The notes under the pieces were generated by a model that ran no database searches, was not told the DNA's origin, and worked only from the letters and a program-made list of their open reading frames with translations. The translations under genes and the position numbers were made by a program. From the NCBI GenBank assembly GCA_005791535.1, contig SXWH01000183.1:1-47558 (forward strand): 47,558 nucleotides of DNA, given 5' to 3'. Source of the stretch: Verrucomicrobiaceae bacterium. Its GTDB lineage: Bacteria; Verrucomicrobiota; Verrucomicrobiia; Chthoniobacterales; Chthoniobacteraceae. The stretch's first letter is position 1. Each line of letters opens with the position of its first letter. Positions 4,988 through 47,349 of this stretch are shown here, in pieces.

Positions 4988-7741
<2,754 letters not shown>

Positions 7742-8060
7742 GCCCACACAACCCCGGCCCCCGCCAAACCTTCGAACAAGAATACCCTCCATCCCATCAC
7801 GGAGGGAAAACTTCTCGTTTGGAGACAGATATTCCTCAAAACGAATCCGTCGCGATGCAAAACGCCGCAGGTTTTGCACGCAGATTACGTAGGAGTTCAT
7901 CGGCAGTTGAGGGGCTTGGGATTGAATGCTGCGGGACTCAGAATATGTCGTTTTCTTGTTCATGGCATACTGGGGTAATTTGCTGATTGCCGACAGTTTG
8001 TTTTCGTTTACGACGGTTTCGGAATCTCACATCTCAACTCCTGAACAATTCATACCGTCT
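7742..8060. other. divergent intergenic region
   Basis: This 319-base gap lies between the divergently transcribed cytochrome gene and the giant surface-protein operon, so it should carry promoters for both directions. I could not pick a -35/-10 pair with confidence. It is AT-richer than its surroundings toward the plus-strand gene, with several T-rich tracts at about 7955-8030. Upstream-extended frames enter it from both sides, but neither looks coding. Base composition flips here from C-rich to G-rich on the plus strand. Confidence 0.6.
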
Positions 8061-11000
8061 ATGAAAAGCCGTCGTATCCTTCTCACTTCGTGTGCTTCTT
8101 TAATCGCCGTGAGTGCATCGGCTCAGGTCATTCCCTCCGCCGGGATCACGCATGTGGACTCGCGGGGCTCGCTCGACGACGCGGCGGATCTTTCGTTTTC
8201 CGCGACGGCATTTGCGGATGGATTGATCGGCAACGGGGGCTTTGCGCCGACGCATACGGTGCCGAATGTGAACAACGGGACGTACGGGAATGCGTCGTCG
8301 TGGATCGGCGGGAGCTACATCGGGCTTTCGTGGGGCAATGCGGGGAAGACGATTCAGAGCATCGCGTTCGGGCGCGATAATACGGGCGTTTTCACGGACC
8401 GGACCGATGGAATTTATGCGCTGCAATATACGACGGCGGATTTGTCGGGCCTGGTGATTCCAAACACGGGCGCGACGGCGGGCGTGGTGGGTGCCGCGGC
8501 GGACGGGGCCGGCTGGGTGTCGGCGGGGACGGTGACGTTGACGGGCAGTCCGGGGCGCAATCGTTTTGATTTGCCGTTCGCGCTTTCGGGCGTGACGGGC
8601 TTGCGGCTGATCGCGCCGGGCGGTGCGGCGATTGATCAATTCGAAGTGTACAGCTCACGGCTGGCGGCGGGCACGAGGAGCGCGAATCTGGTGATTACGC
8701 CGAACGCGGGTTTCACGCTGGGCTGGGATGGGAATGACGGCGTGAATTTTTCCGCTGCGGACCCGGCGTTGGTCCCGGTGAATCTCGCAACGGGTGCTAC
8801 GGCGATTAGCTCGAGTGATCTGGGGCCGGAGTTGGGCATCCCGTTTCATCGCGCGCTGAATTTGAACGACGGATTTTATGGCAATAACAAGTCGTGGATC
8901 GCCGGGCAGGCGGACACGGTGGCACCGTTTGGCGGCGTGACTTTCAGCGGAGCGCGTCATGTGAGCGCGGTGGCGTGGGGGCGCGATAACGGGAACAATG
9001 TGGGTGATGCGCCGAACCAGCAGTTCACCGACCGGGCGACGGGGCTTTATACGCTGCAGAGCTTGAATCCAAACGACAACACGACGTGGGAAACGCTGGG
9101 GACGTTTTATTATCTGGGCAACGATGATGCGACGACGGGCGGCGGTTTCACATCGTGGTTGCGGCATCAGTTTTCCGTGGCGACGGCCGGCGGTGCGCTG
9201 CGTTCGGCAGGCATCCGTGTGATGGTTCCGCCGGGAGGTTTCGGGAGCAATGCGATCGATGAGCTGGAGGTGATCGGGACGACGATGACGTGGTCGAACG
9301 CTGCGGCGACCGGGAAGTGGAATTTGAACGGCGACGCGAATTTTACGGGCGCAGCAGAAGGGAAGTTTTTGGCGCAGGACGGTGTACTTTTTGGAAACGC
9401 GGGGGCGGGGACGGTGACGCTGGAAGGCACGTTGAACTCCGAGACGGTGACGGTGGATGCGGCGTCGAATTATACGTTCACCGGGACGGGTAGCATCACG
9501 GGAACATCGGGCCTTACGAAGCGAGGCGCGGGGACGCTGACTATCGGCGGGACGCACACATTTACAGGTCCGGTGAGCGTGGAGGGCGGGCTGCTGCGGT
9601 TGGCTTTTGCAGACCCAAATTCGCCGGCGTCGAACGTGGTGGGGAGCACGGCGTTGTCGATTGCGGGCGGAGCGCTGCATGTGCTGGGCGCGGCGGATTC
9701 TGCGAATTCGCAGCAGTTTTCGGGGACGACGTTGCGCGCGGGTGTGGCGGAGGTTTTTGCGACGAGGGGAGCCGGGGTGTCGAGTGTGGCGGTGAATCTC
9801 GGTGCAATCACGCGCGATGTCGGAGCGACGGCGACGTTCTTCCCGCCGGGCGGGACGAACTCGGCGACAAACGGAATCGCCACGAGCAGCGGCACAGCGG
9901 GAACGATCCTAACGGACGGCGGCGTGGCGTACGCGCTGGCATCAAGTAATCACAATTGGGCGGCAAAGTCTGCGGACGGGACGTTTATCACCGCGCTGAA
10001 TGTTGTGGGCGGATATACGGGCAGCACGGCTTCGACGCTGGCGGGAAATGCGGATGTCTCAAGCGGCGTGGATACTTCGCTGACCGCGGACACGAGCGTG
10101 ACGAGTCTGCGATTTGACCAAAACGAAGGCCGCGTGATTTCCATCGCGGGCGGGCAGACGCTGACGACCGGCGGCCTGCTCATCACGCCGTCCGTGGGAA
10201 CAGCGGGATCGGCAATCAACGGCGGCACGCTGCGCGGCCCGGCAGGCAAGGACCTCGTGGTTTTCCAAAACAGTCCGCAACCATTCACCATCGGCTCGGT
10301 GATCGCCGACAACACGAGCGCGACGGGGCTTACGAAAGCGGGGAGCGAACGTCTGGTGCTCACGGCGCAGAACAGCTTCACGGGGAATATTCAAATCAGC
10401 CAGGGCGCGCTGGAGCTGTCGGGCGGCAGCAACGGAACGCTGAGCGGAATCGGCGCAAACATCGCCGGCCGCACACTCACCGTGGCACCCGGTGCATCGC
10501 TGATTTCTGCAACGACAGACTCGGTGGATTTCTTTTCCACGACGCAGAACCTCGTCGCTTTCCGCATCGGCGGCACTTGGGAAAACAATCCCGCCAACAC
10601 CGCAGGCACGGGCTTTCAGCGTGTGGACAACCTCACACTCACCGGCGCGACCGTAAACGACCGCGGCCAGCACGGCGGCGGATACGGCGGCATTCTCGCA
10701 GCGGGGAATGTGACGATTTCCGGCAGCGCGCCGTCCACCTACAATCAACTCGGCGGAGGCGCGGGGCTCGGTGTTTTGGCGACGACTTTCAACGTCGAGA
10801 ACGTCACCGGCGACGCTGGCGCGGACTTTGTCGTGAACGGAAACATCCGGCAGTCACCGGTCGGGACGGGGAGCTTTGTGAAGCGCGGCGCGGGAACGAT
10901 GGTGCTCAATGGAACGATGCTGCAGGGGGGAGTCACGACCGTCCTCGGCGGAAAATTGAGTCGGCAAGGAACAACAACGAGCGCGCTGCCGGGCTTGTGG

Positions 11001-12809
11001 GTCGGCAACGGCGCAGTGTTCGCGGCGGAGGCCACCTCGGGAACCAACCGCAACGACGTGACCGGAGACATTACGCTCGCAGGCGGCACGCTCGCCGGGA
11101 ACTCCTACTTTGGCGACACTAACACGGGGCAGTTCTTCTTTTCCAGCGCAGTCGCGCGGAAGCTCTCCGTCCACGGCGACACACAGTCGGTGATTTCCGC
11201 CGACATGCACTTCGGCGGGACGCACACGATTGAAGTGGCGAACGGCGCGTCGGATGTTGACCTGCTCGTGACCGGGCGGCTCAGTCATCATCACTTAACC
11301 GCATGGGGCGGCATTTCCAAAACAGGCGCAGGCACGATGCATCTCGTCGGCTCGATGGATGGCACCAACGCCGCGGGAGTGAACGGCATCTTCGGACTCG
11401 GCGGCATTCAAATCAACGCAGGCACGCTCATGTTCTCCGGCAGCCTCGGCTACAGCGCATTCACGCCGGGAAACAAAGCGGGCTATTTTCTCGCCGATTT
11501 CGCCGGGAACTCGACGCTCAAGTGGGCTCCCGGAAACACGAACGACCCATCCGTAAACGGCAACCTCCGCATCCGCGACGGCGTCACCGCGACGCTCGAT
11601 ACGAATGGAAACGATGTGCTGCTTTCCGGGATATTCGCGACGAACGGAGGCGGCACCGGCGTATTGAAAAAGTCCGGCGCTGGAAAGCTGACCGTCACAG
11701 GCAATCAAACGCTGGCCGGCGGAACGATCGTAGAATCCGGCATGCTGCAAATCGGCAACGGCGGAGCTTCGGGCCGCCTGGGAAATATCGCAAACAGCGG
11801 CACCGTGATTTTCAACCGGTCGGATGATTACACCTACAACGGAGTCATCAGCGGCGCCGGCGGCGTGACGAACAACGGCTTCATCCTTCGCATCGCCAAC
11901 GCGCAGACCTACACCGGCCCGACGGTCGTGAACTCCGGGTTCTTCGTGCTGCCCACGGGCCTCGACAACGCCCTCGCTCCGCAAACCGTCGTTACCGTCG
12001 CGAGCGGTGCGAGTTTCGACATCTCCAGCCGCGCGCTCACCGTCGCCGGACTCAACGGCGGCGGCTCCGTTTACAGCTACAACACATCTAGCGGCGTCCT
12101 CACCTCCAACGTCGCCACGGGTGAAACGCACACCTTCTCCGGCTCGCTCGGCGGTCCATTCCCGAACTTCGCCTTCACAAAATCCGGCCCCGGCGCTCAG
12201 GTGCTCTCCGGCGCAAACACGCATACCGGCGCGACCACCGTCAATGGTGGCACGCTCGTGGTGAACGGCAGCATCTCCGGCAGCACGACCACCGTGGATG
12301 CAGGTGCCACACTCGCGGGAAGCGGCACGCTCGCAGCCGTGAACGTGCTCTCCGGCGGAACACTCGCGCCCGGAAACAGCCCCGGTGTTTTGACCACGGG
12401 CAATATCTCACTGAACAGCGGCTCGACGCTCTCGTTGGAAATCAACACCGCCACACCCGCGACCGGCTACGACCAACTCACTGTCGCCGGCTCAGTCGCC
12501 CTCGGCGGCACGCTTTCACTCTCCGGCTCCTACCTCACAACACCCGCGGTCACCGGCGATCTCTTCTTCGTCGTTATCAATGACGGTGCAGATGCAATCA
12601 GCGGAACGTTTGCCGGAGCACCGGACGGTGGCCATGTCTTTGCGCCGAATGGACAGGACTTCGTCATCAGCTATTTCGCCGATAGCGTGGGCGGAACATT
12701 CACCGGCGGCAACGATGTCGCCCTGATGGCTGTCCCCGAACCCGGAGCTGCGCTCTCGCTGCTCAGCGGCCTTGGCGTGCTCATCGCACTGCGCCGCCGG
12801 CGGCACTAA
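8061..12809 (+). CDS. giant PEP-CTERM surface protein with autotransporter-type repeats
   Basis: A 1582-residue exported protein. The start at 8061 gives a classical signal peptide (MKSRRILLTSCASLIAVSASA); the open frame reaches back to 7926 but that extension precedes the signal. Residues about 47-200 and 204-407 are two copies of a module with the landmarks APTHTVPNVNNG, SSWIG, FGRDN, FTDR and an IDQFEV or IDELEV end, resembling a galactose-binding/discoidin fold. Then come at least six passenger-associated beta-strand repeats marked by a KxGAGxL-like motif near residues 484, 756, 938, 1084, 1201 and 1371. The end is a PEP-CTERM sorting signal: VPEPGAALSLL, a hydrophobic helix and RRRRH. 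An exosortase elsewhere would be expected to process it. Likely role: cell-surface or extracellular matrix protein. Confidence 0.9.
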   Translation: MKSRRILLTSCASLIAVSASAQVIPSAGITHVDSRGSLDDAADLSFSATAFADGLIGNGGFAPTHTVPNVNNGTYGNASSWIGGSYIGLSWGNAGKTIQSIAFGRDNTGVFTDRTDGIYALQYTTADLSGLVIPNTGATAGVVGAAADGAGWVSAGTVTLTGSPGRNRFDLPFALSGVTGLRLIAPGGAAIDQFEVYSSRLAAGTRSANLVITPNAGFTLGWDGNDGVNFSAADPALVPVNLATGATAISSSDLGPELGIPFHRALNLNDGFYGNNKSWIAGQADTVAPFGGVTFSGARHVSAVAWGRDNGNNVGDAPNQQFTDRATGLYTLQSLNPNDNTTWETLGTFYYLGNDDATTGGGFTSWLRHQFSVATAGGALRSAGIRVMVPPGGFGSNAIDELEVIGTTMTWSNAAATGKWNLNGDANFTGAAEGKFLAQDGVLFGNAGAGTVTLEGTLNSETVTVDAASNYTFTGTGSITGTSGLTKRGAGTLTIGGTHTFTGPVSVEGGLLRLAFADPNSPASNVVGSTALSIAGGALHVLGAADSANSQQFSGTTLRAGVAEVFATRGAGVSSVAVNLGAITRDVGATATFFPPGGTNSATNGIATSSGTAGTILTDGGVAYALASSNHNWAAKSADGTFITALNVVGGYTGSTASTLAGNADVSSGVDTSLTADTSVTSLRFDQNEGRVISIAGGQTLTTGGLLITPSVGTAGSAINGGTLRGPAGKDLVVFQNSPQPFTIGSVIADNTSATGLTKAGSERLVLTAQNSFTGNIQISQGALELSGGSNGTLSGIGANIAGRTLTVAPGASLISATTDSVDFFSTTQNLVAFRIGGTWENNPANTAGTGFQRVDNLTLTGATVNDRGQHGGGYGGILAAGNVTISGSAPSTYNQLGGGAGLGVLATTFNVENVTGDAGADFVVNGNIRQSPVGTGSFVKRGAGTMVLNGTMLQGGVTTVLGGKLSRQGTTTSALPGLWVGNGAVFAAEATSGTNRNDVTGDITLAGGTLAGNSYFGDTNTGQFFFSSAVARKLSVHGDTQSVISADMHFGGTHTIEVANGASDVDLLVTGRLSHHHLTAWGGISKTGAGTMHLVGSMDGTNAAGVNGIFGLGGIQINAGTLMFSGSLGYSAFTPGNKAGYFLADFAGNSTLKWAPGNTNDPSVNGNLRIRDGVTATLDTNGNDVLLSGIFATNGGGTGVLKKSGAGKLTVTGNQTLAGGTIVESGMLQIGNGGASGRLGNIANSGTVIFNRSDDYTYNGVISGAGGVTNNGFILRIANAQTYTGPTVVNSGFFVLPTGLDNALAPQTVVTVASGASFDISSRALTVAGLNGGGSVYSYNTSSGVLTSNVATGETHTFSGSLGGPFPNFAFTKSGPGAQVLSGANTHTGATTVNGGTLVVNGSISGSTTTVDAGATLAGSGTLAAVNVLSGGTLAPGNSPGVLTTGNISLNSGSTLSLEINTATPATGYDQLTVAGSVALGGTLSLSGSYLTTPAVTGDLFFVVINDGADAISGTFAGAPDGGHVFAPNGQDFVISYFADSVGGTFTGGNDVALMAVPEPGAALSLLSGLGVLIALRRRRH

Positions 12810-12816
12810 CTTTCCA

Positions 12817-15800
12817 ATGAAAATCCTGAACTTCGCAGTCGTTGCGCTGCTGTCAATCCACACGGTTAATGCAGCGGACACGACGACCGTCTTTAACGAA
12901 GTAATGTATCACCCGCCCAGTGCTGCCGACGCGGAATGGATCGAACTTCACAACAAAATGTCGGTGAACATGGATCTCTCCGGGTGGGAGATTTCCGGCG
13001 GTGTAAATTTCACGTTCCCCAACGGAACGGTCATCCCGGCAGACGGGTATCTGGTGGTGTCATCAAATCCCGGAGCCATGCCGGGTGTGACCGCACTTGG
13101 ACCGTGGACGGGCTCTCTCAATAACGGTGGCGAGACCATCCGGCTGCGGGACCGAACGGGGCGCGTGATGGATGAACTAAGCTACAACGACAGCAGCACT
13201 TGGCCAATCGGAGCCGACGGCGGCGGCTTTACGCTCGCGCGCCGCGCAGGACATTTGTCGGGCACGCAACCGGATCATTGGGTGGCATCAGTCCGCCGTG
13301 GCGGAACTCCGGGCTCTGGAAATTTTGACGCGACGCTCGGTGCACCACAACCGGTATTCGGTCTCGGCGACGCCTGGCTTTACCACGGCACCAGCACAGG
13401 ACTTTCGAGCGGATGGGCGGCAACTTCCAACGTTGCCGGGACGGACGGATGGTTGTCCGGAAACGGAGTGCTCGCATTCGAGGAATCGCCTCTGCCCGCG
13501 CCGGTCGGCACGACGTTGCCGGCTCCGTCTTCGCATCCCACCGGCACCTACTACTTCCAGAAGCAGTTCAATTTCGTAGGCAATCCCTCGCTAACGAAAC
13601 TGACACTCCGGACTCTCACGGATGATGGCGCGGTCATTTATCTGAACGGCACCGAAGTCGCGCGGCAACGAATGGCATCCGGAACAGTTTCAGCCGCAAG
13701 CCGCGCCTCGAATGAGGTCGGAAATGCGGCGTTCGAAGACATCGTAATCCCGACCGCCGCGCTTTTGAACGGAACGAATACGCTGAGCGTCGAAGTGCAT
13801 CAACCAGGCACACCGGCTGGTCCCGGCACAGGCGGATTGACGCTGAGCGGACTCACGCTGACCGAGGTTGGAGGCGCCGGATTTACGACGAACTACTCAC
13901 GCCAACCGGGGGCCGTTGCATTCGCAAAAGACTTGATCGGCAATGGCTCGTTTGCGCCGACCCACACAATCCCGAATCTGAACAACGGGACCTTTGGCAA
14001 TTCCTCTTCGTGGATCGGAAACTCGGCAAATTCATTCTGCGGCGTGAGCTTCGGCGCGACCCCGGTGAGCGTGGGACGTGTGGCTTGGGGACGCGACAAT
14101 ACGCGCAACCTCACCGACCGCAGCAACGGGCTCTACACGCTGGAATACACAGCGCTGCCAAACCCTTCCGAATTCACTCCGCAGACTGGAAACCCAGCGA
14201 CCGGTTGGGCGACCATTGGGACCGCTTCCTATCCCTCCAACGGGCTTCCATACAGCCTTCGACACGCATTTTCATTCCCGCCGGTAACGGCGACCGGCAT
14301 CCGGCTTACCACGACGACGAACGGAACGTGCGTGGACGAACTCGAAGCCTCCTCGTCCGGCGGACCACTGTTTACGCTCATGTCCACGGGAGGCGCTGCC
14401 GATACTGCAGCGAACATGGCGACGACCGGAACCGCGTTCGCAAAGGATTTGATCGGGAATGGCTCACTTGCGCCGACGCATACGATTCCGAATCTGAACG
14501 ACGGGGTTTATGGAAACGCCAGTTCCTGGATTGGAAACACGGCGACTTCGTACTGCGGAATCGGCTTCGCGACACCCCGCCAGATTGGGCGCGTCGCATT
14601 CGGGCGGGACAATCTCGGCGCTTTTACCGATCGGACGCTCGGCGATTACACGATCCAATACACAACCGTTGCGAGCCCGAACCTAGCGACGCCCGAAGCA
14701 TCGTGGACGACCATCGGGGTGATCAACGTGAACGCTTCTCTGCCGCTTCCATCGCAGCGTCACGTGTTTGATTTCGCAGCGATCAACGCGACCGGCATTC
14801 GAATTCTCACTCCGGATGGAGCGTGCATCGATGAACTCGAACTCTACGGCACGCTCAATTCAGACATCGTGTGGGGTGCATCGCTTGAATCGCAGGAAGT
14901 GATTCCGCCGCCCGTTCCCCCATCGTTGCGAATCTCCGAAATCGCCGGCGCAGGCGCAGGAACATGGCGCATCGAACTCCAAAACCTCGGAGCCTCGCCC
15001 GTGAACATTGGCGGACTCATCCTCAGCGCCAGCGGACTTCCGGCCAGCTACACGATGCCGCCGCAGACTCTCGGAGCCGGTGACTTCCTTGTTCTGGATC
15101 AGGCCACGCTCGGATTTCGACCGCTGCTCGACGATCGCGTTTTTCTGATGACCGCCGGCAGCGCTGTGCTCGTCGATACCGCTGCGGTAAAGACGACGAC
15201 ACGGGCGCGCGATGGCCTGGGACGGATGCTTTCACCAACCGCCGATTCGTTTGGTGCTGCAAACGCATTCGCGCTGAACAGCGACGTCGTCATCAACGAA
15301 GTGATGTATCACGCGCCGCCAAACTCCGGCCCCGTTACGGACAATCCTGAGGAATGGATCGAACTCCACAATAAGAGCGCTGCGCCGGTGAGCATCGCAG
15401 GCTGGAAACTCGACGACGCAGTCTCGTTCACAATTCCAGCAGGAACAATAATCCCAGCGGGCAGCTATCTCGTTCTGGCAAAAGACGCAGCCGCGCTCGC
15501 TGCAAAATGGCCCGAACACAGCACCCGGATCATCGGTAACTTTTCCGGCACACTTTCCAATACGACCGATCGCATCGTGCTCGAGGATGCTGCGGGAAAT
15601 CCCGTGGACGAAGTCCGCTACTACACCGGTGGCGCATGGCCCGAGACGCCCGATGGCGGCGGCGCATCGCTGGAATTGCGCGACCCGCGCGCCGACAATT
15701 CGGCAGGGAGCGCGTGGGCGGCGAGCGATGAGAGCGGCGACACCGCGTGGCAGAATGTCAGCTACACGATGGTCGCCGGACAGGCTTTCGGGCAGACAGC

Positions 15801-18800
15801 GTTGTGGAATGAATTCCGCCTCGGCCTGCTCGATTCGGGCGAGTGCCTGGTGGACGATGTCAGCGTCGTTCGGGTGAGTAACAGCCAGCAACTCATTCAG
15901 GGCGGCGATTTCGAATCCCTCGCCACGAAATGGCGTGCGCTGGGAAACCACGGCACGAGCGCCATCGAGGCGGAACCCGGTGCGCCGTCGAACCATGTTC
16001 TCCGCCTCCGTTCCAGCGGTGCGTTCTCATGGAATCACAATCACATCGAAACATCGTTCGTTGCGAACACCGCGCTCATCGATGGCGAGAGCTACACAGT
16101 AAGCTTCCGGGCGCGCTGGCTGTCAGGCTCGAATCAACTCAACACGCGCGCCTATTACTCGCGCCTCGCGAAAACGACCGAGCTCACGATGGCTACACGC
16201 ATCGGCACCCCGGGCGCGGCGAATTCGCGGAGCATCGCGAATCTCGGCCCAACATTGACCGGCCTCACACATTCCCCGGTCATTCCCAACGCAGGCGAAG
16301 CCGTGACGGTCAGCGCCACTGCCACGGACCCGGATGGGATCGCGTCGCTCACTTTGCGCTACGCGCTCAATGGCGGCGCGACTTTTGCCAGCGTGCCGAT
16401 GACCGCGAACGGCGCGACCTACTCCGCGCAAATTCCCGGCCAGTCGGCAGCGACGATCGTTCAGTTTTACATCGAAGCTGCCGACGCCGCAGCCGCGACA
16501 TCCACGCTTCCCGCAGCCGGTGCGGCTTCGCGGGCGCTTTATCTCGTCAATGACGGAGCAGGCACCACCCTCGCCGCCCACGAGCTCCGCGTGATCATGC
16601 TTCCCGCCGACTCGACCAGCCTCCTCGCGCCGCTGAATCGCCTGAGCGACGCCCGCATCGGCGGCACGGCGGTGTATCGCCGGAACGAAGTCTTCTACGA
16701 CGTGGGCGTCCGCTTGCAGGGAACCGCCGCAGGCCGGATCCGGGATGGCGACGACTACGTCGGCTACGATGTGGGATTTGCCGCCGACCGCCTCTTCCGC
16801 GGACTGCACAACAATCTGAACATCGACCGCAGCGGACGCTCCCCCGTGATTCGCCAGCAGCATGAGATTTACGTGAAACACGCGTTTCACCGCGCGGGCG
16901 TCGCCTGCACCTATGACGACCTCGTCTATTTCATCTCGCCGAACGGGACACACACCGGCACCGCGATCCTTCAAATGGCCGGCTACGGCGGCGAGTTCGT
17001 GAAATCCGAGTTCGGCGGCGACGGAACGATCTTCAACATGGACGGCACCTACGAGCCGAGCACAACGACCAACGGCAACTTCGAGAGCCTCAAGAATCCC
17101 GTTCCTCTCGCACCACACGTCCAATCGGACTTTGCAAACTTCGGCAGCGATAAGGAGCAATACCGCGGCCAGCTCGAACCACGCGCCAACGGCCGGGCGG
17201 ATGATTTCTCCGGGCTCATCGCGTTCAGTCAGGCAATGGCGGACACCGGCCCGGGTTTCGCGACAAACATCGCCGCACGGATGGATGTGGATCAATGGAT
17301 GCGCTGCGCCGCGATTTATTCGCTATTCGGAATCGGCGACTGCTACATGACGAATGGCTTCCAGCATAACTTCCGCATTCACGTGCCGAGCGACGGACTC
17401 CGCGTGTCGGCTCTCGCGTGGGACATGGACTTTGTGCACAGCTTCGCGCTTAACAGTCCGCCAATCCTCGCTGGCGGCAACCTCCTCCGCGTCATCAATA
17501 CCGTGCCCGGCGCCCGCCACGCGTACTACGGCCATTTGCACGACCTCTGCCAGACGGTCTTCAATACCAGCTACATGCTGCCGTGGCTCTCGCACTACGG
17601 GAGCGTCGTTGGCCAGAACTACACTTCAAACGCCGTCTATATCGACGCGCGCCGCAGCCACATCCTCTCGCAACTCCCGGCAACGGTCGCCTTTTCGATA
17701 ACGACGAATGGCGGAGCCAACTTCAGCGTGAACGCGGCCAGCACGACGCTTGGAGGGAATGGCTGGATCAATGTTCGCGAAATCCGCCGCTCCGACACCA
17801 ACGCTGCGCTCGACCTTGTTTGGACCAGCGACACGGCGTGGACCGCCACAGTCGGTCTCAACTTCGGCGCGAACCCGATCACGCTCGTCGCATACGACGC
17901 AAACGGTGCGCAACTCGGCACCGCGGCTATCACGGTCACCAGCACGCTCACAGCGCCGAATCCGCGCGACCATCTCCGCATCACCGAGATTCACTACAAC
18001 CCCGCCGCTCCAGCCGGTGGCGAAACCGCTGTAAGCACCGACAAGGACGACTTCGAGTTTATCGAGCTTCGGAACTTCCACCCGACGCAAAACCTCGACA
18101 TCAGCCTTTGCAAATTCACATCGGGCGTGGACTTCACATTCCCCTCCCCGACAATCCTTGCGCCCGGCGAGTTCATCCACGTCGCGCGAAATGTCGCAGC
18201 GTTCAATGCGCGCTACGGTGCCGGCCCGCGCCGCACCGGACCTTACGGACCGCCGGATTCGCTCTCCAATGGCGGCGAGACCATCACGCTCGTGGACGCC
18301 ACCGGCGCGCTGATTCAGTCGCTCACCTACAACGACACATGGTATCCGCAAACCGACAACGGCGGCTACTCGCTCGTCGTCGTTGCGCCGGAGCTCCCTC
18401 TCGATCGAACCGTTGCATCGAGCTTCCGCGCCAGCACGGCCATCGGTGGGAATCCAGGTGCCTCGGATGCTGTCACATTCACCGGCACGCCGGGCGATGA
18501 TCTCGACGGCGACGGGCTCAGCGCATTCCTCGAACACGCGCTCGGCACCAGCGACGGTGTCCCAAACACCAGCGGCATTGCCGTGACCCGCGAGCTCGAC
18601 GGCTCACTCACGCTCACGTTCACATCGCGGCTGAACGCAGACGACGTCGTCCTCTCGCTCGAAACCGCGACCACACCCGGAGCATTCGTGCCCGCCGTGC
18701 CGATCGTCGTCAGCGCTGTTCAGAGCGGGACGACGCTCACCCAAACGTGGCGCGCAACTCCCCCGCCCGGCGCCGGGCAATTCCTCGTGCGGCTCAAGGC

Positions 18801-18813
18801 CACGGCGCGCTGA
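12817..18813 (+). CDS. giant secreted protein with lamin-tail and CotH kinase-like domains
   Basis: A 1998-residue exported protein starting 7 bases after the stop of the PEP-CTERM gene, so almost surely co-transcribed. The start at 12817 opens the signal peptide MKILNFAVVALLSIHTVNA. Lamin-tail domains lie at about 25-110 (FNEVMYHPP, EWIELHN), 826-960 (INEVMYHAPP, EWIELHN) and 1720-1850 (ITEIHYNP, FIELRN), with a weaker one near 700-800. Two copies of the same binding-like module as in the upstream gene lie at about 368-515 and 540-690. A CotH-like domain spans about 1255-1600 and keeps the WDMDFV motif (W at 1535), the metal-binding site in CotH kinases. A DLDGDGLS calcium-type motif precedes the C-terminal domain. 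No PEP-CTERM signal is present. CotH proteins phosphorylate surface proteins in other bacteria; whether the neighbour is a target is inference. Confidence 0.88.
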   Translation: MKILNFAVVALLSIHTVNAADTTTVFNEVMYHPPSAADAEWIELHNKMSVNMDLSGWEISGGVNFTFPNGTVIPADGYLVVSSNPGAMPGVTALGPWTGSLNNGGETIRLRDRTGRVMDELSYNDSSTWPIGADGGGFTLARRAGHLSGTQPDHWVASVRRGGTPGSGNFDATLGAPQPVFGLGDAWLYHGTSTGLSSGWAATSNVAGTDGWLSGNGVLAFEESPLPAPVGTTLPAPSSHPTGTYYFQKQFNFVGNPSLTKLTLRTLTDDGAVIYLNGTEVARQRMASGTVSAASRASNEVGNAAFEDIVIPTAALLNGTNTLSVEVHQPGTPAGPGTGGLTLSGLTLTEVGGAGFTTNYSRQPGAVAFAKDLIGNGSFAPTHTIPNLNNGTFGNSSSWIGNSANSFCGVSFGATPVSVGRVAWGRDNTRNLTDRSNGLYTLEYTALPNPSEFTPQTGNPATGWATIGTASYPSNGLPYSLRHAFSFPPVTATGIRLTTTTNGTCVDELEASSSGGPLFTLMSTGGAADTAANMATTGTAFAKDLIGNGSLAPTHTIPNLNDGVYGNASSWIGNTATSYCGIGFATPRQIGRVAFGRDNLGAFTDRTLGDYTIQYTTVASPNLATPEASWTTIGVINVNASLPLPSQRHVFDFAAINATGIRILTPDGACIDELELYGTLNSDIVWGASLESQEVIPPPVPPSLRISEIAGAGAGTWRIELQNLGASPVNIGGLILSASGLPASYTMPPQTLGAGDFLVLDQATLGFRPLLDDRVFLMTAGSAVLVDTAAVKTTTRARDGLGRMLSPTADSFGAANAFALNSDVVINEVMYHAPPNSGPVTDNPEEWIELHNKSAAPVSIAGWKLDDAVSFTIPAGTIIPAGSYLVLAKDAAALAAKWPEHSTRIIGNFSGTLSNTTDRIVLEDAAGNPVDEVRYYTGGAWPETPDGGGASLELRDPRADNSAGSAWAASDESGDTAWQNVSYTMVAGQAFGQTALWNEFRLGLLDSGECLVDDVSVVRVSNSQQLIQGGDFESLATKWRALGNHGTSAIEAEPGAPSNHVLRLRSSGAFSWNHNHIETSFVANTALIDGESYTVSFRARWLSGSNQLNTRAYYSRLAKTTELTMATRIGTPGAANSRSIANLGPTLTGLTHSPVIPNAGEAVTVSATATDPDGIASLTLRYALNGGATFASVPMTANGATYSAQIPGQSAATIVQFYIEAADAAAATSTLPAAGAASRALYLVNDGAGTTLAAHELRVIMLPADSTSLLAPLNRLSDARIGGTAVYRRNEVFYDVGVRLQGTAAGRIRDGDDYVGYDVGFAADRLFRGLHNNLNIDRSGRSPVIRQQHEIYVKHAFHRAGVACTYDDLVYFISPNGTHTGTAILQMAGYGGEFVKSEFGGDGTIFNMDGTYEPSTTTNGNFESLKNPVPLAPHVQSDFANFGSDKEQYRGQLEPRANGRADDFSGLIAFSQAMADTGPGFATNIAARMDVDQWMRCAAIYSLFGIGDCYMTNGFQHNFRIHVPSDGLRVSALAWDMDFVHSFALNSPPILAGGNLLRVINTVPGARHAYYGHLHDLCQTVFNTSYMLPWLSHYGSVVGQNYTSNAVYIDARRSHILSQLPATVAFSITTNGGANFSVNAASTTLGGNGWINVREIRRSDTNAALDLVWTSDTAWTATVGLNFGANPITLVAYDANGAQLGTAAITVTSTLTAPNPRDHLRITEIHYNPAAPAGGETAVSTDKDDFEFIELRNFHPTQNLDISLCKFTSGVDFTFPSPTILAPGEFIHVARNVAAFNARYGAGPRRTGPYGPPDSLSNGGETITLVDATGALIQSLTYNDTWYPQTDNGGYSLVVVAPELPLDRTVASSFRASTAIGGNPGASDAVTFTGTPGDDLDGDGLSAFLEHALGTSDGVPNTSGIAVTRELDGSLTLTFTSRLNADDVVLSLETATTPGAFVPAVPIVVSAVQSGTTLTQTWRATPPPGAGQFLVRLKATAR
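13921..14852 (+). repeat. tandem pair of module-encoding repeats, period 516 bases
   Basis: Two adjacent segments inside the CotH gene start with nearly the same bases (TTCGCAAAAG at 13921, TTCGCAAAGG at 14437), exactly 172 codons apart. Both encode the order AFAKDLIGNGS, APTHTIPNLN, SSWIGN, GRDN, TDR and C(V/I)DELE. A third recognisable DNA relative starts at about 8210 in the upstream gene. The pattern indicates duplication of one module within and between neighbouring genes. Confidence 0.8.
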
Positions 18814-22418: not shown

Positions 22419-25068
<2,650 letters not shown>

Positions 25069-43548: not shown

Positions 43549-44850
43549 ATGCGCCGCACAATTGCCATCGTCTGCCTGCTCGCCGGTCTCGCCACCGCGC
43601 CGCTCGTCCCAGTCCGCGCCCAGGATTCCGGTGCGCAGGGCCAGTTTGTCGAAGCATTCCTCATCGTTCGTAAAGGAGAGGACGACGAGAAGAACGGCAA
43701 ACTTAAGGATGCGATGGTCAACTACCGCACCGCCGCAAACATGCTCACGCGAGTGAAGCAGACATGGCCAAACTGGCAGAAGGACATCGTAGAATTTCGG
43801 CTCAAGCGCACAATGGAGGCGATTGATCGTATCCAGGGCCAGATGGGCGTTGGCCCCGGCGGGGGCGGCGAAGTGCTTCCACCGATCGCACCCGCAACGG
43901 CACCCGCGGAAATTGGTCTTCCGCCCCTCGAACCAGTGGAAGGTGTCGCACTTCCTCCAATCGACAACAACCCGCCCGAGCCCCGCCAGCCCATTGGGAA
44001 GGGCACTAAGAAAACTGTGCCGCCCGTGAGTGCCGTTGGGGGACTCGATTTAATCCGCCAGCAAATTGCTGATCTTGAGAACCGCCTCCAGAGCACCCAG
44101 GAAGAACTCCGCGCAGAGAAGGCCAAAAGCCAGCAACTCACGCAGGAATTGGATAGCGCGATGACCGCGCGTAAGGCTGCTGAAACGGCTCAGAAAAAGG
44201 CGCAAGACCTCGCAGATCTATATCAGAAGAACGTTCTCGAAATCAAAAGCTCCGGAGACAAGAACTCCGCCCGGGTCAAGGAACTCGAGAGCCAGCTTGC
44301 CGACGCGAAGAAGCAGCGTGATTCCGCGCAGACCGAACTCGCTGCCGCGACCGAGCGAGAAGAGCAACTCACCTCCCGCGCGAAGGCACTCGCCGCACGC
44401 GCGCAGGAGGCAGCCGAACTCCCCGGCAAGATCAAGGGCCTTGAAGGTGTGATTGCCGCCGAGCGCAAGAAGAGTGAATCGCTCGCGGGACAGGTCACGA
44501 CATTGACAAAGGAACGCGACGAGGCCCGCACCGAAATTGCGAAGCTGAAGGATCTGAACAAACAGACCGACAAGCTCATGGCGGATAACGCGAACCTGCT
44601 GAAGAAACTCGGTGATGCCGAGAAACAGATTCTCAATTTCAAGGCTGACTCGGTCGAGAAGGAGCAGGCCATCGCAGCGCTGCAAAAGCAGGTAACGGAG
44701 TCGCAGAAGGCGCTGCTCGTTTCGAACGAGACCAGTTCGAAGCTCACCACCGAAGTGAGCGAACTCCAAAAAAGGTCGGCGACTACTCGAAGCAAATCCA
44801 GCAATTCAAAGCGGAGAAAACGGCAAGCGCTGAAGAGCAGCGCAAGATGA
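43549..44850 (+). CDS. exported coiled-coil protein, 5' part of a frameshifted gene
   Basis: A 433-residue frame with a signal peptide (MRRTIAIVCLLAGLATAPL through the VRAQ cleavage region), a short TPR-like helical region (RKGEDDEKNGKLKDAMVNYR), a Pro-rich linker and a coiled coil from about residue 165 to 407 (LIRQQIADLENRLQSTQEEL onward). After ELQK at about 408 the frame turns into a Ser/Arg/Lys-rich tail (RSATTRSKSSNSKRRKR) of a kind typical of an out-of-frame reading. The -1 frame continues the coiled coil instead (KVGDYSKQIQQFKAEK) straight into the TPR gene downstream. The break is at an A6 run, 44768-44773. The full product would be a periplasmic or envelope coiled-coil/TPR protein of about 800 residues. 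Confidence 0.72.
   Translation: MRRTIAIVCLLAGLATAPLVPVRAQDSGAQGQFVEAFLIVRKGEDDEKNGKLKDAMVNYRTAANMLTRVKQTWPNWQKDIVEFRLKRTMEAIDRIQGQMGVGPGGGGEVLPPIAPATAPAEIGLPPLEPVEGVALPPIDNNPPEPRQPIGKGTKKTVPPVSAVGGLDLIRQQIADLENRLQSTQEELRAEKAKSQQLTQELDSAMTARKAAETAQKKAQDLADLYQKNVLEIKSSGDKNSARVKELESQLADAKKQRDSAQTELAAATEREEQLTSRAKALAARAQEAAELPGKIKGLEGVIAAERKKSESLAGQVTTLTKERDEARTEIAKLKDLNKQTDKLMADNANLLKKLGDAEKQILNFKADSVEKEQAIAALQKQVTESQKALLVSNETSSKLTTEVSELQKRSATTRSKSSNSKRRKRQALKSSAR
44768..44773 (+). other. A6 tract at an apparent -1 frameshift
   Basis: Codons CAA AAA AGG in the upstream frame. One additional A, or a one-base backward slip on the AAA lysine codon, gives CAA AAA AAG GTC and joins the two coiled-coil halves. 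The sequence contains A AAA AAG, the heptamer used by E. coli dnaX, but its phase relative to the incoming frame differs by one. I did not find a clear downstream stem-loop by eye. Confidence 0.6.
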
Positions 44851-45977
44851 CCGAGGAAAACCGTCTGCTACAGGGAATCGTCATGCGCGTTTTGCAAGAG
44901 GATGCAAACCGCGCGCAGCGGAAAAAAATGATCCAGAAGGAAATGGATAAGCTCCAGATCGAATCGGACGTGCTTCTGAAGCAAATCGGCTTCCTCACAC
45001 AGCCTGTCATCAAACTCAGCTCCGAGGAGCGCCGTTTGTTTAAGAAACCGGAACTGACCGTGCAGGATCCGAACACGCTCGTCGCAGTTCTGCCAAGCAC
45101 CGCGCAAGAAGCCGCGCCAGCTGGAAATCCCGCAGCAACCGCGCCGGAGAATCCTGCTCCCGCCGCTGGAACGCCCGAGAAGACGAACGCTAACAATCCT
45201 CCGACGGAGCTTCCAAAACCGGAGATACCTGCAATTGCCAAACCGGCAACTCCGACTGAACCGAATAAGACCGAGATGGCAAAACTGACCAATCCGCCGC
45301 CATCGAAGATCGATGACCTCCCGAAGAAGGATCCCGTTGAAATCAAAACCGAGCCGGGAAAGACGGATTCCAAAACACCGGGAAGCTCACACGCAGTCGA
45401 GACGTCGGCGATTCCGAATCTTCCGGATGACGTCAAACCACTTGCGGAGCAGGCCAAAGCAGCCTTCGACCGCGAGAAATATCCGGACGCCGAGCGGCTC
45501 TACGACAAGGCTCTCCTACTCGTTCCGAACAATCTTTACCTGCTTTCAAATCGTGGCGTGGTTCAATTCCGTGCAGGAAAGTTGAAGCAGGCCGAGGACA
45601 GCCTCCGGAAGGCGCTCGCAATCGCTCCGGAGGACTCATTTTCATGGTGCACGCTCGGCATCGTTTACTACAGCCAGGAGAAATACGATGACGCCGTAAA
45701 CGCGCTCACGAAGTCCCTCGCGATCAACTCCAAGAATGCCACGGCGCACAATTACCTCGGCATCACGGCAGCTCAGAAAGGCTGGATGGAGGCAGCGCAA
45801 AAGGAACTCGAAACCGCCTTGCAGCTCGACGCCAAATACGCGGACGCATGGTTCAATCTCGCCGTGGTCATGGCCACAAAAACGCCCGCCAACAAGCCCG
45901 AGGCAAAGAAGGCGTATGACAAGGCCGTCGAACTAGGTGCCGCTCCTGATGCCGCCATGGAGGCACTCGTCAAGTAG
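44847..45977 (+). CDS. coiled-coil/TPR protein, 3' part of the frameshifted gene
   Basis: A 376-residue frame. It begins inside a coiled coil (EENRLLQGIVMRVLQEDANR, then QRKKMIQKEMDKLQIESD), has a long Pro/Lys/Thr-rich linker (about residues 85-190) and ends with four TPR units (about 200-370: DREKYPDAERLYDKALLLVP, GKLKQAEDSLRKALAIAP, EKYDDAVNALTKSLAIN, WMEAAQKELETALQLD). It has no signal peptide of its own. The ATG overlaps the upstream stop (ATGA, 44847-44850), so independent, coupled translation is possible, but the in-frame upstream sequence back to the A6 run also codes for coiled coil, which favours one gene. TPRs mediate protein-protein contacts. Confidence 0.78.
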   Translation: MTEENRLLQGIVMRVLQEDANRAQRKKMIQKEMDKLQIESDVLLKQIGFLTQPVIKLSSEERRLFKKPELTVQDPNTLVAVLPSTAQEAAPAGNPAATAPENPAPAAGTPEKTNANNPPTELPKPEIPAIAKPATPTEPNKTEMAKLTNPPPSKIDDLPKKDPVEIKTEPGKTDSKTPGSSHAVETSAIPNLPDDVKPLAEQAKAAFDREKYPDAERLYDKALLLVPNNLYLLSNRGVVQFRAGKLKQAEDSLRKALAIAPEDSFSWCTLGIVYYSQEKYDDAVNALTKSLAINSKNATAHNYLGITAAQKGWMEAAQKELETALQLDAKYADAWFNLAVVMATKTPANKPEAKKAYDKAVELGAAPDAAMEALVK

Positions 45978-45995: not shown

Positions 45996-46526
45996 TTGAA
46001 AAAGCTCCTCCTGCTGATCCTGCTCGCGTCCATCGGCGGTTTCATCTACTCGCCGTATAAATTGACCGAGGATTTTGCGACCGCGGTCGTAAATCGTGAT
46101 TTAACGACGCTCGCAGCGGCGACTGACACCCCGAAGTTCCGCGAGGCATTTAAAGCCGGTATTCGTGGAATGCTGTCCGACACTCTGCGCCAGCATCAAC
46201 CTTCGAACTACCCGCTGCAACGTGCGCGTTCCGAGTTGCTCGCCGCGATCGTTTTGCACGAAAAGCAAATCGACCTGCTCTTCACGGAGGAACAGACGGG
46301 ACGAATGTTCGACCTCATTCATACAAAAGAAGTCCGCAGCTCCTATCACTTCACGAACAAGGGCTGGAGAGGTCCGCTCACGTTTGTGGCCGTGGACAAC
46401 AACGACGGAACAAAGATGGTCTTCGAGTTTCAAGGACTCGCCGGATGGCGCCTTACCGGCTTCGACGTATCACGAAACGTTGCATCAACCCTCGTCGGTA
46501 ACCTCCTGCGGAGCAGCAGCCGCTAG
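45996..46526 (+). CDS. DUF2939-like membrane-anchored protein
   Basis: A 176-residue protein starting with a TTG at 45996 (MKKLLLLILLASIGGFIYSPY: basic start and one hydrophobic anchor). The soluble part begins YKLTEDFATAVVNRDLTTLA followed by DTPKFREAFKAGIRGML, which resembles DUF2939 proteins, where a membrane-anchored domain sits in the periplasm; the function of that family is unknown. The C-terminal half is a beta-rich domain (GPLTFVAVDNNDGTKMVFEF). It lies 18 bases after the TPR gene and converges with uppP (7 bases apart). Confidence 0.62.
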   Translation: MKKLLLLILLASIGGFIYSPYKLTEDFATAVVNRDLTTLAAATDTPKFREAFKAGIRGMLSDTLRQHQPSNYPLQRARSELLAAIVLHEKQIDLLFTEEQTGRMFDLIHTKEVRSSYHFTNKGWRGPLTFVAVDNNDGTKMVFEFQGLAGWRLTGFDVSRNVASTLVGNLLRSSSR

Positions 46527-46533
46527 CCCGGAT

Positions 46534-47349
46534 TCAATGCACGATGCCTGTTGCGTAAAGTGCGAGCAGCAACGCAGCGAGCGCGATCCGGTAAATTCCA
46601 AAACCCGTAAATGTGTGCGTACGCACGTACCCGAGCATCCATTTGACCGCAAGGATTGAGGAAATCGCGGCAACTACGCAGGCAACAACGAGCGGTCCCC
46701 ACAAAACCGGTTCCGGGTGGTTGACTAAATGCAGCGTCTTCAGCGCGCCCGCGGCAAGAAGCGTGGGCACACCGAGCAGAAATGAAAACTCCGTCGCAGG
46801 CCCGCGTCCGAGTCCGAGCATCAAAGCCGCGAGAATTGTCACGCCCGAGCGCGAAGTTCCTGGAAACGCGACGGCGCAAAGTTGCGCCGCACCGATCAAA
46901 AGCGCGAGCTTCCAGCTGATTTCAGTTACTTCCGGACGACCGCGAATCCATCGCTCCACCATAACAAAAAGCACGCCACCCACCGCCAGCGCCGCGGCGA
47001 TGGGTGCCACCGATTCCGGAAGCTCGAGCCCCGCCTTCTTCAGCGCGAGACCGCCAATTGCAGTAATTCCAAAGGCTGCGGCGAGCTTCAGGAAATAGTC
47101 CCGATAGGCCGGCTCACGCCAGCGTTTCAGCGTGGCCAAGCGGTCCTTGAAAAGCGGCAGCGCGGCGAGCACCGCTCCGCATTGGACGATTGCGTTAAAG
47201 AACTCGCCATTGAAAAACGCACCACCTTCGACTCGCTCCACACCAAGGAGGTGCTCCACAATCAAAAGGTGCCCGGTTGAGGAGACCGGTATGAACTCCG
47301 TGAGACCTTCGACAAGGCCCAGAACAATTGCGATAAGCCAAGTAGACAT
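46534..47349 (-). CDS. uppP: undecaprenyl-diphosphatase
   Basis: Integral membrane phosphatase (UppP/BacA type) that recycles undecaprenyl diphosphate to the carrier lipid used for peptidoglycan and other envelope glycans. The 271 residues show the two signature motifs: VEGLTEFIPVSSTGHLL near residues 13-29 and AFPGTSRSGVTILAALMLGL near 160-180, with several hydrophobic helices. Overexpression of this family gives bacitracin resistance in other bacteria. The ATG at 47349 has no Shine-Dalgarno. It starts 11 bases after the stop of the PII gene, suggesting co-transcription. Confidence 0.95.
   Translation of the reverse strand: MSTWLIAIVLGLVEGLTEFIPVSSTGHLLIVEHLLGVERVEGGAFFNGEFFNAIVQCGAVLAALPLFKDRLATLKRWREPAYRDYFLKLAAAFGITAIGGLALKKAGLELPESVAPIAAALAVGGVLFVMVERWIRGRPEVTEISWKLALLIGAAQLCAVAFPGTSRSGVTILAALMLGLGRGPATEFSFLLGVPTLLAAGALKTLHLVNHPEPVLWGPLVVACVVAAISSILAVKWMLGYVRTHTFTGFGIYRIALAALLLALYATGIVH

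Follow-up and report, generated by a model that had tools for sequence, protein, structure and literature searches.

An ordinary one-base indel as the probable cause of a split exported coiled-coil/TPR gene in a draft Verrucomicrobiaceae genome

Introduction

Near one end of a contig from a draft Verrucomicrobiaceae genome, two open reading frames (ORFs) overlap in different frames, raising the question of whether they represent two proteins, a short and a long product made by programmed frameshifting, or the two pieces of a single interrupted gene. The window, i.e., the whole stretch of DNA analyzed here (47,558 nucleotides), is the entire contig C157 of an assembly of 5.16 Mb in 294 contigs, with an estimated completeness of 86.6%. 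On its forward strand, an upstream ORF in frame 1 (43549-44850, 433 amino acids) is followed by a downstream ORF in frame 3 (44847-45977, 376 amino acids), and frame 3 is open in the 5' direction beyond 44760. The initial annotation suggested that slippage at an A6 run, if programmed, would yield two versions of the protein, a short exported coiled coil and a longer one that carries tetratricopeptide repeats (TPRs); as the alternative it proposed that the split reflects either a mutation of recent origin or an error in sequencing. Comparison with relatives makes it very probable that an ordinary one-base indel in one exported coiled-coil/TPR gene accounts for the arrangement, with no need to invoke programmed frameshifting.

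Results

Position of the frame break

The frame switch was sought with a three-periodic coding model that was trained on the source genome and took no homology input; it placed the switch at 44767, the log-likelihood support being 72 on the left and 75 on the right. When intact homologues were compared with the window by tblastn, two high-scoring segment pairs (HSPs) were obtained, one in frame +1 reaching 44775 and the other in frame +3 starting from 44769. Because the coding model and the HSPs both locate the break at the A run, the frame change is real in the assembly and beyond chance, and it falls where the initial annotation had put it, at the A6 run 44768-44773 (0-frame codons CTC, starting at 44764, then CAA AAA AGG TCG).

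The 5' part of the gene (43549..44775, frame 1) encodes a signal-peptide-like N terminus, a Pro-rich linker, and a long coiled coil; it matches residues 1 to approximately 410 of the intact homologues and is 59% identical to those of G002 and G007. These two genomes, the nearest relatives, were assembled from metagenomes and carry the labels Chthoniobacteraceae bacterium and Prosthecobacter debontii. The 3' part of the same gene (44772..45977, frame 3) encodes the end of the coiled coil, another Pro-rich linker, and a TPR domain (TPR_2, E = 1.5e-23 in a profile search) before the stop codon, and its identity to the same two homologues is about 75%. The Ser/Arg/Lys tail of the upstream ORF (44776..44850) is an out-of-frame extension and not a real domain, and the ATG at 44847..44849, which overlaps the out-of-frame TGA, resembles a start codon but corresponds to an internal Met.

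A SAM-dependent methyltransferase gene (PF10672; 42509..43495, reverse strand) lies divergently upstream and adjoins the gene in most relatives. The downstream neighbour encodes a DUF2939 protein (45996..46526, forward strand), an adjacency kept in G002 and G007, and a gene of the BacA/UppP family (undecaprenyl pyrophosphate phosphatase, PF02673) is found nearby at 46534-47349 on the reverse strand. Elsewhere, gene order is heavily scrambled among congeners, with adjacent segments of window positions 1-40000 mapping to many contigs of G002 and G007. This part of the window also carries, on the forward strand, a gene for a 1,627-residue protein with autotransporter-type PATR repeats (7926-12809) and an adjoining ORF whose 2,013-residue product combines a CotH kinase domain with three lamin-tail domains (12772-18813); both are very long.

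The gene is unbroken in relatives

A protein search returned matches in 55 of 57 relatives' genomes, many of the weaker ones being TPR-only. We read the junction DNA in the 20 closest relatives, 9 from the same genus and 11 from the same family. Both halves lie in one unbroken ORF of 541 to 992 amino acids in 19 of them (G006 and G012 are truncated N-terminally by a contig edge); the remaining one, G020, is a contig-edge fragment of 394 amino acids whose frame begins some 16 residues ahead of the junction and crosses it without a stop. The frame break is thus present in none of the 20 relatives, and the source genome is its sole carrier among the 21 compared.

Aligning the -1 fusion with the continuous ORFs of the homologues, as the initial annotation had proposed, left no gap at the junction, no residue being added or lost relative to any of the 20; the window reads ...SELQK|KVGDYSKQ... 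and both G002 and G007 read ...TELQK|KVGDYSKQ.... Conservation of the A6 run, which the annotation had also suggested looking for, was not seen. Same-genus codons at the site are CAA AAG AAA, CAG AAG AAG, or CAA AAG CAA, interrupting the run, and distant relatives have unrelated codons; an A7 run occurs in G004 only (CTC CAA AAA AAG GTG), where it is in frame.

Coding constraint across and beyond the junction

Among the 26 codons past the break, differences at -1-frame positions 1/2/3 number 3/2/12 against G002 and 2/2/13 against G007; since they concentrate at third positions, these codons evolve as coding sequence in the -1 frame. The earlier statement that about 25 codons of coiled coil precede ATG 44847 in that frame was correct. 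No conserved Ser/Arg/Lys tail was found in the same frame of the relatives, and in G002, G003, and G006 this frame meets a stop at its second codon. Separate proteins with a conserved Ser/Arg tail in homologues, named in the initial annotation as evidence against slippage, were accordingly not encountered. In the column of position 44847, Met is present in all nine congeners within a single ORF, so the ATG/TGA overlap is incidental.

For the downstream part, dN/dS is approximately 0.1 against G002 and G007, although dS is near saturation and these ratios are rough. Nonsynonymous divergence (pN) to the outgroup G009 is 0.354 before and 0.236 after the break for the window, and 0.360 and 0.269, respectively, for G002. 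Judged by these substitution measures, the window lineage is not accelerated relative to G002, and the downstream frame is intact and constrained, with no sign of decay; the change is therefore either very recent or non-biological.

Other frame breaks in the draft genome

We scanned 1.02 Mb of the source genome (81 contigs or contig pieces) for further frame breaks. A single further gene was confirmed as broken, which indicates a low background of isolated broken genes. It lies on contig C33 (L107, about 6535-8881, reverse strand) and encodes a Ser/Thr kinase that also has lectin and FGE-sulfatase domains. The FGE-sulfatase profile is matched at its positions 48-142 in one reading frame and at 160-254 in a different one; the break lies inside this domain and, it appears, away from any homopolymer. 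In those parts of the window contig for which G002 and G007 have homologues, no additional frameshifts were found.

The sample contains about 375 homopolymers of at least 6 bases, only one of them tied to a confirmed frame break. Homopolymer indels are therefore not common in this assembly, a mild argument against a systematic source of error.

Several candidates were rejected or left uncounted. Apparent switches at window position 22834, at 3084 in L061, and at 17772 in L064 are normal short gene overlaps, and the event at 12242 in L060 reflects two overlapping genes. In the larger scan, most events lie about 20 bases or less from a stop codon and represent gene boundaries. Also kept out of the count were L058/L147, repetitive and at a contig edge, and L057, where a Pro-repeat coincides with a gene boundary.

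Discussion

Because the gene is unbroken in all 20 relatives, an ordinary mutation or an assembly error, rather than a programmed event, is strongly favored. In this reading, a net loss of one base in the poly-A tract interrupts the exported coiled-coil/TPR gene in the assembly; the upstream frame then runs into a meaningless basic tail ending at 44850, and the true protein carries on in the -1 frame. The non-programmed alternative of the initial annotation is thus borne out by the full-length homologues and by the restriction of the break to one genome. As to the cause, the chances may be split roughly evenly between a sequencing or assembly indel in a draft genome and a very recent mutation by replication slippage. 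In a survey of 1,106 genomes, frameshifted singletons, which have full-length homologues but no cluster of relatives shifted in a similar way, were expected to be sequencing errors and not genuine indels (PMC3711429). If the mutation is real, the protein made would be an exported coiled coil that stops short and lacks its TPR domain, apart from traces arising by leakage or by re-initiation at the incidental ATGA.

A related possibility, which we consider improbable, is that the A6 run is real and recent and that low-level slippage by the ribosome or RNA polymerase supplies some full-length protein, the main product being the short exported coiled coil; such a rescued indel might be reversible by replication slippage.

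It is very unlikely that the run of six A's directs programmed -1 ribosomal frameshifting and so gives rise to two forms, the short exported coiled coil and the long coiled-coil/TPR protein. Such a mechanism would draw on the poly-A tract at the break, the open -1 frame, and an in-phase A_AAA tetramer, lysyl-tRNA being shift-prone in Escherichia coli (PMC4066793). However, the slippery site is absent from the relatives, whose genes encode the long form directly. The letters A AAA AAG are present at the run, but, as the initial annotation recognized, their phase is wrong for a -1 heptamer; CTC CAA AAA AGG offers no in-phase X_XXZ_ZZN, and the tetramer alone is in phase, A_AA.A being the weakest of the listed active hierarchy of tetramers in E. 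coli (PMC4066793). Of a genuine programmed site one would expect conservation and a length of at least a heptamer (PMC3711429). No clear stimulator was seen either: the fold of the 80 bases downstream is unremarkable, with a z score of -1.38 and 19 of 200 shuffles as good in a folding model without pseudoknots, and no GGAG, GAGG, or AGGA Shine-Dalgarno core was seen by eye in 44740-44767. The suggestion that slippage produces both forms is therefore unsupported, and the single unbroken homologues speak against it more directly than do the observations that the initial annotation had named for that purpose.

Transcriptional slippage at the A run, restoring part of the full-length message, is equally hard to credit. 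RNA polymerase insertions do happen at A/T runs (PMC5574713), but the run here is only 6 bases long, and slippage sites used in expression are usually 8 to 9 bases or longer (PMC3711429, PMC1088944); A/T runs of exactly 6 number about 285 in the 1.02 Mb sampled, and slippage at an A6 run would provide trace rescue at best. Least likely of all are two separate, translationally coupled genes joined by the ATGA overlap (44847-44850), which resembles coupled pairs elsewhere in the source genome, but the relatives have one ORF in all 20 cases with an internal Met at the ATG, and the coding frame changes about 75 nucleotides upstream of it.

With a one-base indel as the preferred reading, the locus is struck off the list of candidate programmed frameshifts, and 43549-45977 should be annotated as one interrupted gene and not as two proteins.

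Comparison with known systems is in keeping with this reading. The window site shares the poly-A letters A AAA AAG with the programmed -1 frameshift of E. coli dnaX but differs from it in phase, in showing neither an SD-like stimulator nor significant downstream structure, and in being unconserved in relatives. As for the intact protein, CpoB/YbgF-like proteins are periplasmic and combine a coiled coil with TPRs, and the order of export signal, coiled coil, and C-terminal TPRs is shared with the gene described here, a likeness that serves as a lead only. Unlike those proteins, the intact same-genus homologues are about 760 to 890 amino acids long with long Pro-rich linkers, and no family model names them, the matching models being generic TPR and coiled-coil ones; the intact family of exported coiled-coil/TPR proteins is widespread in the order and uncharacterized, which is nothing out of the ordinary. 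The closest counterpart of the break itself is category i of the GeneTack survey, singleton frameshifted genes (PMC3711429), in which, as here, the break occurs in a single genome and homologues span both sides as one protein; we see no notable difference between that category and the window gene, in which the indel would be either an error or a mutation.
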